Positions 2,288 to 27,668 of a DNA stretch of 64,000 nucleotides are shown here, one piece after another; position 1 is the first letter of the stretch; the number at the start of each line of letters is the position of its first letter. Under the pieces are notes generated by a model. The model did no database searches. It was not told where the DNA came from and saw nothing but the letters and a program-made list of their open reading frames with translations. Source of the DNA: Thermicanus aegyptius DSM 12793. GTDB taxonomy: Bacteria; Bacillota; Bacilli; Thermicanales; Thermicanaceae. Both the position numbers and the translations under genes were made by a program. The DNA lies in NCBI RefSeq assembly GCF_000510645.1, contig NZ_KI783301.1:2208420-2272419 (forward strand), written 5' to 3'.

Positions 2288-2301
2288 GGTATGCGCATAC
2301 C
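2288..2301. repeat. 14-bp palindrome GGTATGCGCATACC, copy 1
   Basis: Perfect inverted repeat. Identical copies lie at 6189, 24776 and 33467. None was noticed in the chromosomal part of the window. Confidence 0.85.
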
Positions 2302-6186: not shown

Positions 6187-6204
6187 GAGGTATGCGCATA
6201 CCTC
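6187..6204. repeat. GGTATGCGCATACC palindrome, copy 2 (18-bp extended)
   Basis: Core 6189-6202, with the symmetry extended to GAG...CTC on both sides. It lies between the restriction-modification genes and the end of the pilus ATPase gene. Confidence 0.85.
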
Positions 6205-7526: not shown

Positions 7527-7739
7527 CTAGTTACTAGTACCTAAGAAAATATTCTTTAACTCATTGAATTTCCCGACGATTGCACCCCCCATTCCGGTTA
7601 GCGCCGGGATAGCTGCCAGAGCGATGAGAAGGATGATAAGCGCCTTCTCAACGATGTCTCCGCGTTTACCGCCTAAGAGTCCTTTCGCCTTCATCTTGAA
7701 CATTTCAAAACGAACGAATCCTTTTAGAATGAAATCCAT
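7527..7739 (-). CDS. Flp/class III-type pilin, paralogue 2
   Basis: 70 aa; the ATG at 7739 has an ideal AAAGGAGGTG site. A charged N-terminus (about 30 aa) leads to K-R-G-D-I-V-E, then a continuous hydrophobic segment (LIILLIALAAIPAL). This is the layout of prepilins cleaved after the Gly, with a Glu near +4/+5. The C-terminus is short (KNIFLGTSN). It is nearly identical in its last 45 residues to the pilin at 7810-8022. No prepilin peptidase is encoded in the window. Confidence 0.75.
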   Translation of the reverse strand: MDFILKGFVRFEMFKMKAKGLLGGKRGDIVEKALIILLIALAAIPALTGMGGAIVGKFNELKNIFLGTSN

Positions 7740-7809
7740 ACCTACACCTCCTTTCATTAAAAAATATCGAGAGGGGGGTATGTGTTTACCCCCTCATATA
7801 TACACCGCT

Positions 7810-8022
7810 TTAATTGCTTGTACCCAAAAAGATATTTTTTAACTGCTCGAACTTCGATACAATCGCGCTCCCCATTCCGGTTAACGCAGGAATAGCTGCC
7901 AGAGCGATGAGAAGGATGATAAGTGCCTTCTCAACGATGTCTCCTTTCTTGCTGTTCTTGATTTCTTTTACCCTCATCTTAAGCATTTGGTAATGAATAA
8001 AACCTTTTAAAACCAGATCCAT
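7810..8022 (-). CDS. Flp/class III-type pilin, paralogue 1
   Basis: 70 aa, same length as its neighbour at 7527. ATG at 8022 follows GGGGAGGTG. The predicted cleavage region is K-K-G-D-I-V-E followed by a 20-residue hydrophobic helix. The N-terminal leader differs clearly from the paralogue while the mature part is almost unchanged (GMGSAIVSKFEQ against GMGGAIVGKFNE). It follows TadB/TadC and precedes TadA, as pilin genes do in compact Tad loci. Confidence 0.75.
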   Translation of the reverse strand: MDLVLKGFIHYQMLKMRVKEIKNSKKGDIVEKALIILLIALAAIPALTGMGSAIVSKFEQLKNIFLGTSN

Positions 8023-8087
8023 CCTTTCACCTCCCCTCCTTTGTATTTTGAAAAGCAAGCTCGTCCCTCCCTTCCAAAATTGGGTTT

Positions 8088-11950: not shown

Positions 11951-12970
11951 TTAATCCAAGTTTAACTCTGCCGCCAGTTTTGCAATCGCATAATCAAACG
12001 GATGGCGCAAGTATGCAGGTTTTCTTTCCGCAAAAGCAGAAGCCACTCCGTCTGATTCTTCAATTTCTACGAGTTTGCCCCCAGCAAGACTTCTCATCAG
12101 ATGAACAAAGGAATACCGGAGCGGTTTGGTTTCATCAATCCGATTCACGACGAGAAGATGGCGTTCATCCATCCCGTCTGTATAAGCCTCCAGCTTCATG
12201 TAGTCGAGTTCCGACGGGTTTACAACCGTAACAATCCTGTGTGCCAAATCCAATAATTCCTCTTTATATGGCGAATACGAAGGAACGTCCGCTACGATGA
12301 TATCCGCATTTCGTTCTAACCCTTTTTGAATGACGATTCTTTCTCCCTTTGTTTCAAAAAGATCACCAAAGCCTGTTTCTTTCAGCACTTCGTTATTTGG
12401 CGCACTTCCATAATGGAAAGCTGCATCCCCTGTATTTGATACATCCAAAAGAAGGGTCTTTAATCCTCTCGCGCGATAAAAGCTTGCTAATGAGGTTGCA
12501 ACCGTTGTTACTCCTGAACCCCCATTTACACCATGAACGATGACAAGTTTTGCCGTAGTTCTAAGTTCCAGAGGTTCCTCTGTTTCCTTATGTTCGCGGA
12601 AAACATAAAAATCTTCATTTTCTCGTTCAATAAAGACCCTTGCATCAGGGAGCTTGGGATCTCTTAACACTTTTTCTATCTCATTTTGAACCCCAGACAT
12701 CCTCCATTCTGTGCCGGTCAAAACTTCCTCAATGCCGTTTTCTTCAGCATAACGTTGAAATGCTACGCCTTTTTCGTCCAATTCCCCGGTCATAATGACT
12801 ATAGGCACGGAAGCTTCCGTTTGGATAATCACATCATCAATCATCTTCTCGTTTACTTCGTTTCCGCGGACAATTAAGACTACCTTCGCTTCTTCTAAGG
12901 AATCTGTTAGATTCCGAAAATGTAGTTTAAAACGCCTTTTCATCTTTTCATCTGCAATTAAATAAATCAC
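11951..12970 (-). CDS. CpaE-like ParA-fold protein with degenerate Walker A (copy 2)
   Basis: 339 aa. GTG at 12970, shared GTGA with the stop of the upstream gene. A receiver-like N-terminal domain (about 1-100) is followed by a ParA/MinD-type domain. The P-loop reads GVNGGSGVTT (about 147-156). The invariant GK-T/S lysine is Val and the signature Lys at the loop start is Asn, so ATP hydrolysis is doubtful. The downstream DVSNTGDAAFHYG and ADVPSYSPYKEELLDLAHR positions of a ParA fold are still recognisable. It may act as a non-catalytic partner of the neighbouring copies. Confidence 0.72.
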   Translation of the reverse strand: MIYLIADEKMKRRFKLHFRNLTDSLEEAKVVLIVRGNEVNEKMIDDVIIQTEASVPIVIMTGELDEKGVAFQRYAEENGIEEVLTGTEWRMSGVQNEIEKVLRDPKLPDARVFIERENEDFYVFREHKETEEPLELRTTAKLVIVHGVNGGSGVTTVATSLASFYRARGLKTLLLDVSNTGDAAFHYGSAPNNEVLKETGFGDLFETKGERIVIQKGLERNADIIVADVPSYSPYKEELLDLAHRIVTVVNPSELDYMKLEAYTDGMDERHLLVVNRIDETKPLRYSFVHLMRSLAGGKLVEIEESDGVASAFAERKPAYLRHPFDYAIAKLAAELNLD

Positions 12971-24418: not shown

Positions 24419-24445
24419 TTCTTTGATTTCACCCCCAATAAAAAG

Positions 24446-24475
24446 AAAAAGAGGGGCAGCTATATTCCCCTCTTT
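24446..24475 (-). terminator. Leader terminator 2, directly before the first T4SS gene
   Basis: On the minus strand AAAGAGGGG-(loop)-CCCCTCTTT is followed by TT and a pyrimidine run. It overlaps the region just upstream of the ribosome site of the gene starting at 24418. Confidence 0.72.
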
Positions 24476-24775
24476 TTTTGTTGCCTTGCAGTTTCGCAGT
24501 TGGCAAAACAAGTCCACGCCTTTAGGCGTCGGATATTTGGCCTTATTTATTTTTTAGATTTATTTTTTAACAGTTTCCCGCGATCCCCCATTTGGTGGAT
24601 TTCGGGAGGGAACTACCCTCCCATCGTCAGGCGGGGATTATTTTTATTTTTTATCCGATCTATTTCTTGAAAAGGTATAGGCTTTTTTTTAAAAAAGGCG
24701 ATCCCCGCCTTTTTAGCAGAAATCGCCATTTTAAACATAATAAGGGTCTGGTTTCATAGACCCGATTTTATAAAA

Positions 24776-24789
24776 GGTATGCGCATACC
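24776..24789. repeat. GGTATGCGCATACC palindrome, copy 3
   Basis: Perfect copy inside the T4SS leader, about 115 nt downstream of the predicted transcription start, next to a second small palindrome (CTCTATATAGAG). Confidence 0.85.
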
Positions 24790-24909
24790 CTCTCTATATA
24801 GAGAAGGTTTTTGTTTTCCCTCTCCCTGTAATGGAAGATGGAAAGATTATACCACCATCCTCTCCCTGAACGGAAGAAGAAGAGTTTGAGTTCAAACTAC
24901 TGTAGTATT

Positions 24910-24938
24910 ATTATAATCTTTTTCAATTTATAATGCAA
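24910..24938 (-). promoter_or_regulatory. SigA-type promoter of the T4SS operon
   Basis: On the minus strand TTGCAT (24933-24938), a 17-nt spacer, and a consensus TATAAT (24910-24915). It reads leftward into the leader at 24903-24419. Confidence 0.72.
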
Positions 24939-27613: not shown

Positions 27614-27668
27614 TCGCCCTATGCAATAAAAAAGCCCCACCCTGCTCTTCGTGAGCAAAGTGGGCCAG
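27614..27668 (-). terminator. Repeated terminator cassette, copy C (short)
   Basis: Hairpin GGCCCACTTTGCTC...GAGCAGGGTGGGGC followed on the minus strand by a T run and TATTGCATAGGGCG. The upstream lead seen in copies A and B is missing. Confidence 0.72.

Follow-up and report, generated by a model that had tools for sequence, protein, structure and literature searches.

Terminator-antiterminator control of conjugation operons has been established for Tn916, which uses canT (PMC11658703), and for pLS20, which uses conAn (PMC8955417). In the first of these, RNA-based processive antitermination opens the conjugation genes of the ICE, with terminators placed between promoter and genes (PMC11658703); the second is bipartite, comprising the ConAn1 protein and the conAn2 RNA, and operates where a conjugation operon with internal terminators begins (PMC8955417). 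Processive antitermination by RNA only is represented in the Bacillales by EAR of exopolysaccharide operons (named in PMC8955417 and PMC11658703). The putRNAs are about 70 nt in length and consist of two stem-loops, with putL located just downstream of its own promoter (PMC9378689), while LoaP acts on leaders that carry a hairpin and a terminator (PMC12691694). The known cases of processive antitermination of conjugation genes each involve a single leader (canT, conAn). In the element described here, one covarying module appears to gate nine operons and, if so, these would form an antitermination-based regulon like that of lambda, with many more sites.

The window analyzed is a stretch of 64,000 nucleotides from the genome of Thermicanus aegyptius DSM 12793 (contig NZ_KI783301.1) that includes part of an element of approximately 120 kb, the minus-strand genes of which run from about 43 kb of the window leftward to about 2128 kb of the genome. 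Genes for a T4SS, a Tad-like pilus, RecT, a RadC-like protein, a primase, and helicases are carried on it, and no integration repeats were identified for it. The T4SS operon, which like all of its features described below is read from the minus strand, begins with an open reading frame of 116 aa to which the Pfam search assigned no family (24418-24068). It encodes further a TrbC/VirB2-type pilin (23722-23387; Pfam 1.6e-9, above cutoff), a PrgI/VirB3-like protein (23297-22977; Pfam PrgI 6e-5, scoring 23.9 and hence just below the cutoff of 27), and a VirB4-like ATPase (22129-20168; NCBIfam 2.7e-42, below that model's own cutoff, and Pfam TraG P-loop 1.3e-15).

Transcription of this operon is predicted to start at a sigma-A-type promoter, TTGCAT-17-TATAAT (24938-24910), which was overlooked by a consensus scanner because its -35 element agrees with the consensus at only three of six positions; the same layout recurs in eight homologous leaders, the -35 elements of which include TTGACA and TTGCAA. 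Alignment and covariation placed two hairpins downstream of it, hairpin A with the sequence UCUUCUUCC-GUUCA-GGGAGAGGA (24880-24858) and hairpin B with the loop AUUACA (consensus ANYACA), followed by AAACAAA (24844-24815). Comparison of the leaders added hairpin D, GGGTCT/AGACCC (24763-24744), the pairing of which is preserved despite altered sequence in the four other type I leaders. A type I terminator then follows (24727-24691), and its folding energy of -19.7 kcal/mol was matched by no shuffle. Folding identified a second, weaker terminator immediately 5' of the first gene (24479-24445; -14.4 kcal/mol including flanking A-U pairs and -10.8 kcal/mol without them), the opposite strand of which is terminator-like too, making it bidirectional. 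Within the operon, one terminator (23330-23299, -16.5 kcal/mol) separates the SD of the VirB3-like gene (about 23345) from its ATG (23297), and another is found 5' of the gene for an M23 peptidase (17154-17118, -18.5 kcal/mol). Folding of the former would bring SD and ATG near each other, and translation of the VirB3-like gene may depend on it. Between positions 12000 and 26000, terminator-like sites numbered 30, about double the 13.3 +/- 3.1 of shuffles. A preliminary description of the window had named this promoter together with the four terminators and had argued that the transfer genes would stay silent without read-through. All five features were recovered, and the argument is strengthened by the homologous leaders, which, as judged from their sequences, strongly suggest that control is co-ordinated and exerted by antitermination.

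The initial 250 nt of the leader (24938-24690) proved to be one of nine copies of a single RNA unit in the element. Every unit opens with a sigma-A-type promoter; a pair of tandem hairpins comes within some 30 nt of the start and is succeeded by a strong terminator, beyond which lies a gene. The genes behind the nine leaders include those for RecT, a RadC-like protein, a DUF6744 protein, a MoxR-like ATPase, and a TnpB-like protein as well as the T4SS operon. When the copies were aligned and analyzed with RNAalifold, the two hairpins emerged with 11 of 20 pairs changed on both sides and 96.1% of cells paired. None of 500 shuffles reached the observed covariation score and all slid controls were lower; as paralogs of a single genome are the source of the covariation, relatedness is corrected for in part by the slid controls and not by the shuffles. 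Both hairpins are also present in the minimum-energy fold of each leader. The derived covariance model, R1, scored the T4SS copy of the tandem-hairpin module (24884-24807) at 83.1 bits, and a search of the complete 3.66-Mb genome returned nine strong matches (70.8-87.6 bits) on one strand within 2132198-2233303, all of them on the coding strand of the element. These matches are the sequences on which R1 was trained, and the informative part of the search is the absence of others: the genome held nothing further up to E 0.1 except two weak antisense echoes at the same places. R1 likewise had no match in any of the class's 399 other genomes, and no Rfam family matched the unit at threshold. A search with the hairpin-B pattern retrieved nothing related from the collections of genome and viral contigs, and its 14 matches in 85,000 genomes were scattered over unrelated taxa at no more than 27.6 bits.

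The arrangement of the unit is as constant as its pairing. A promoter is present in all nine copies, with the -10 element ending 20-28 nt ahead of the hairpin module, and each copy has a terminator after hairpin B (-15.6 to -22.2 kcal/mol). Five of these terminators are of the GGCGATTTCTGCTAAAA.. type, with additional hairpins in between, and four are of the GCCATTTCTTTTAAAACG.. type; the pattern GC(G/C)ATTTCT..TAAAA is common to both. In six copies an RBS follows 22-61 nt past the terminator, a gap that could scarcely, if at all, accommodate a second promoter. With the remaining three (c1, the T4SS copy, c8, and c9) the first gene lies farther from the terminator, and a separate promoter could be situated between the two. 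The nine copies are 70-80% alike, and through compensatory changes all have retained strand, promoter, pairing, and terminator, which makes it very improbable that they represent nothing but a selfish or duplicated intergenic repeat devoid of a regulatory role, even though other kinds of repeat (a palindrome and another family of promoter-terminator units, both described below) have also spread in the element.

Each unit, extending from promoter to terminator, is self-contained and could in principle be a gene for a small RNA, whereby a structured RNA of 150-220 nt would act in trans and the downstream gene would be served by modest leakage. The C-rich and GGGAGA-rich character of the hairpins would suit such a function, and the distal part of three copies weakly resembles the Enterococcus sRNA EF3314_EF3315 (22.6-26.2 bits against a gathering threshold of 100). 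However, every one of the nine units precedes a gene, six of them with the RBS at the short distance given above, and nine near-paralogous sRNAs would be unusual for one element. We consider this explanation improbable.

Three more familiar kinds of leader control were evaluated and rejected. A fold-switching attenuator would require an alternative partner for the 5' arm of the terminator; none was conserved across the nine leaders, and upstream pairing gained only 0.2-5.2 kcal/mol compared to the -15.6 to -22.2 kcal/mol of the terminators. Translational attenuation found no better footing, as a leader peptide occurs in copy c2 only and none is conserved among the nine. With neither an alternative partner nor a leader peptide conserved, both switches are unlikely, and what is left is either an effect of the hairpins on the elongation complex or simple leakiness of the terminators. 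Binding of a CsrA-type protein was considered for the ACAGGGA of hairpin B, but its GGA is located in the stem and co-varies with its partner in copy c6.

Leaky terminators alone could be enough for downstream expression. The leader terminators would then be simple attenuators or insulators that permit a constant partial read-through, thereby lowering expression, setting stoichiometry, or blocking read-in from upstream, with no dedicated antiterminator involved. Related elements, whether or not they encode an NGN protein, indeed often have terminators separating genes of the same strand, and the one at 23330-23299 comes after the pilin gene, a position at which reduced expression would be sensible. 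This reading leaves unexplained why all nine terminators are accompanied by conserved tandem hairpins that covary and share the loop ANYACA, and we regard it as unlikely.

The leader is instead thought, with slightly better than even confidence, to function as a cis-acting signal for processive antitermination of the put or canT kind, with its nine copies placing most operons of the element under common control. By default, RNA polymerase would halt at the leader terminator. Recognition of the tandem hairpins, either directly by RNA polymerase as with put of HK022 or by a protein of the element, would convert the transcribing enzyme to a terminator-resistant elongation complex, which would then pass the leader terminator and subsequently distal ones such as those at 23330-23299 and 17154-17118. 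Transcripts started spuriously and lacking the hairpins would still terminate.

In architecture, and not by homology, the module resembles putL and putR of HK022: two stem-loops near the transcript start, present at least twice in a mobile genome. It differs in that the element has nine copies, is Gram-positive, and has hairpins about 15-20 nt apart with a terminator following at once. A likeness to canT is also confined to architecture, in that terminators stand between promoter and genes; canT is a single RNA of 452 nt, whereas the element has a module of about 80 nt in nine copies. With pLS20, the likeness lies in the position at the start of the conjugation operon and in a terminator of its own just ahead of the first operon gene. 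Homology to the conAn2 RNA was rejected, as R1 found nothing better than 12.6 bits (E 0.74) in the 50 of 65.8 kb of pLS20 searched. Comparison of four early proteins of the pLS20 operon, one of them presumably ConAn1, with the element revealed no clear relative (best E 0.076). The leaders also differ from EAR, for which they give no match in Rfam. In addition to the regulon they may form, the nine natural variants would allow a direct reading of the sequence rules of the module.

Among the proteins of the element, the best candidate for recognizing the hairpins is the NGN-domain protein encoded on the minus strand at 40294-39599, directly upstream of the gene for a RecD2-type helicase (39606-37381, minus strand; NCBIfam 2.2e-228). 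It was presented in the preliminary description as the obvious processive antiterminator. The domain itself is real (Pfam NusG 30 bits against a cutoff of 22.2, residues 5-95), the profile of its family agrees with the NGN domain in solved structures of NusG, and the protein is distinct from the housekeeping NusG, encoded at G000:C1:3612765. A C-terminal KOW domain was found in neither Pfam, NCBIfam, nor the PDB, and a conserved helical C-terminus is present in its place; single-sequence structure prediction was too poor for use (mean pLDDT 53). At E <1e-20, this subfamily is represented in 12 of the class's 400 genomes, always directly beside recD2 (12 of 12), and the leader is a candidate RNA target for its members.

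The NGN protein could itself be the antiterminator, binding (or pausing at) the tandem hairpins and traveling with RNA polymerase as LoaP and RfaH do. Consistent with this, its own operon has no leader, as would be expected of an early regulator, and the combination of an NGN protein with a leader hairpin and a leader terminator is that of LoaP (PMC12691694). Against it, the protein lacks a KOW domain and scores 26.2 bits with the NCBIfam LoaP model, the cutoff of which is 125, and the UNCG hairpin sought in the leaders as the LoaP-type hairpin is absent from all nine. Moreover, the 11 other elements that have the NGN-recD2 pair are without the leader module, and neither intergenic BLAST nor word counts turned up a comparable family of leaders in related elements with NGN. 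The expectation that NGN elements would contain more operon-internal terminators was not borne out, with 27 in 462 junctions compared to 8 in 161 for comparable elements without NGN (p=0.84; genes taken as simple longest-ORF calls). Finally, the constant adjacency to recD2 may indicate a role in DNA processing. RNA sites and proteins can diverge fast, and the leaderless relatives would hence be compatible with an NGN role. The description of this protein as the obvious antiterminator was therefore too strong; its link to the leaders is one of co-residence, by which it is hypothesized to be a plausible partner, and its acting as the antiterminator in this manner is entertained as a tentative possibility.

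The NGN-recD2 pair together with the VirB4 and M23 peptidase genes is common to a 101-kb plasmid of Brevibacillus marinus and a 69-kb contig of genome G032. Searches of the collections of genome and viral contigs with the NGN protein, and of the viral contigs with VirB4, returned no related match. Upstream of the NGN operon are genes for tRNA-Glu, tRNA-Ile(TAT), and tRNA-Trp (window 41115-40645, minus strand), with a fourth tRNA-like sequence (about 40842-40645) that is seemingly split by a long insertion and was not called by ARAGORN.

Between its two terminators, the T4SS leader contains a fold like that of a hammerhead ribozyme (24635-24577), the core of which, CUGACGA/GAAA/AUC, is intact. 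Prophages are a common location of hammerheads, which may cleave long transcripts (PMC3088659). This copy is 77% identical to one at genome 2172868-2172811 that has a canonical type I core (CUGANGA / GAAA / NUH) and stems of 5, 6, and 7 pairs; the stems II of the two are wholly different in sequence, and both pair. Controls comprising 20 shuffles of the element and 1.1 Mb taken from other loci contained no such pattern. In Rfam, the canonical copy scored 19.4 bits against a gathering threshold of 34 and the leader copy was not listed. Stem II of the latter carries a U bulge and stem III a single mismatched pair, and the activity of this copy as a ribozyme is consequently uncertain. In its boldest form, our interpretation would posit a new class of antiterminator RNA, nut-like and composed of tandem hairpins within about 80 nt, which is used nine times and recruits a KOW-less NusG paralog to switch on nearly all operons at once, with the hammerhead of the transfer operon cutting the antiterminator part off the mRNA; we rate this full combination as a long shot. 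The canonical hammerhead-like copy (L086 4450-4391) is situated about 40 nt 5' of a gene encoding a Csx3-domain protein.

Another repeated sequence, CGCCTRAAGGCGNNNRCTTG, was considered as a site for the NusG paralog; it has three copies in the genome, in the T4SS leader, at 17.2 kb, and at 0.65 kb. It was rejected on recognition that it is the 5' domain of HEARO. At the Rfam gathering threshold of 83, HEARO (omega-RNA) was approached at 667-458 with 68.2 bits, while 17214-17063 gave 27.5 bits and the T4SS leader was not listed. The leader copy is a HEARO-like 5'-domain fragment, CGCCTAAAGGCGTGGACTTG (24528-24509), and that at 17214-17159 (27.5 bits) lies upstream of the terminator there, both on the minus strand. 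The HEARO-like RNA just under the gathering threshold is followed by an RRXRR-type ORF in what resembles an IscB/IsrB-like locus (window 667-1, minus strand, continuing into L085 20000-19416).

The palindrome mentioned above, the 14-bp GGTATGCGCATACC, occurs in six exact copies in the genome, all within the element (window 2288-2301, 6189-6202, 24776-24789, and 33467-33480; genome 2136986 and 2154083) and one of them inside a coding gene. It looks like a DNA-binding site for a regulator or partition protein of the element. The second multi-copy promoter-terminator family consists of CGCTAAAATARACTTGACAATTCAATGG... and then a terminator of the GGCCCRCTTTGCTCC.. type (window 14610-14435, 2552-2378, and 29311-29222; genome 2197348-2197202), with terminator-only copies near 27667, 35489, and 35890. 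Repeats of the AAAAAGTCCCATTGCC type are present within the primase gene and again in intergenic DNA (window 34010-34230 and 35483-35613), and are possibly the iterons of a replication origin. Beside the T2SSF genes of the Tad-like pilus cluster are two small genes in tandem (window 7527-8058) that are 76% alike in DNA sequence and possibly encode duplicated pilins.
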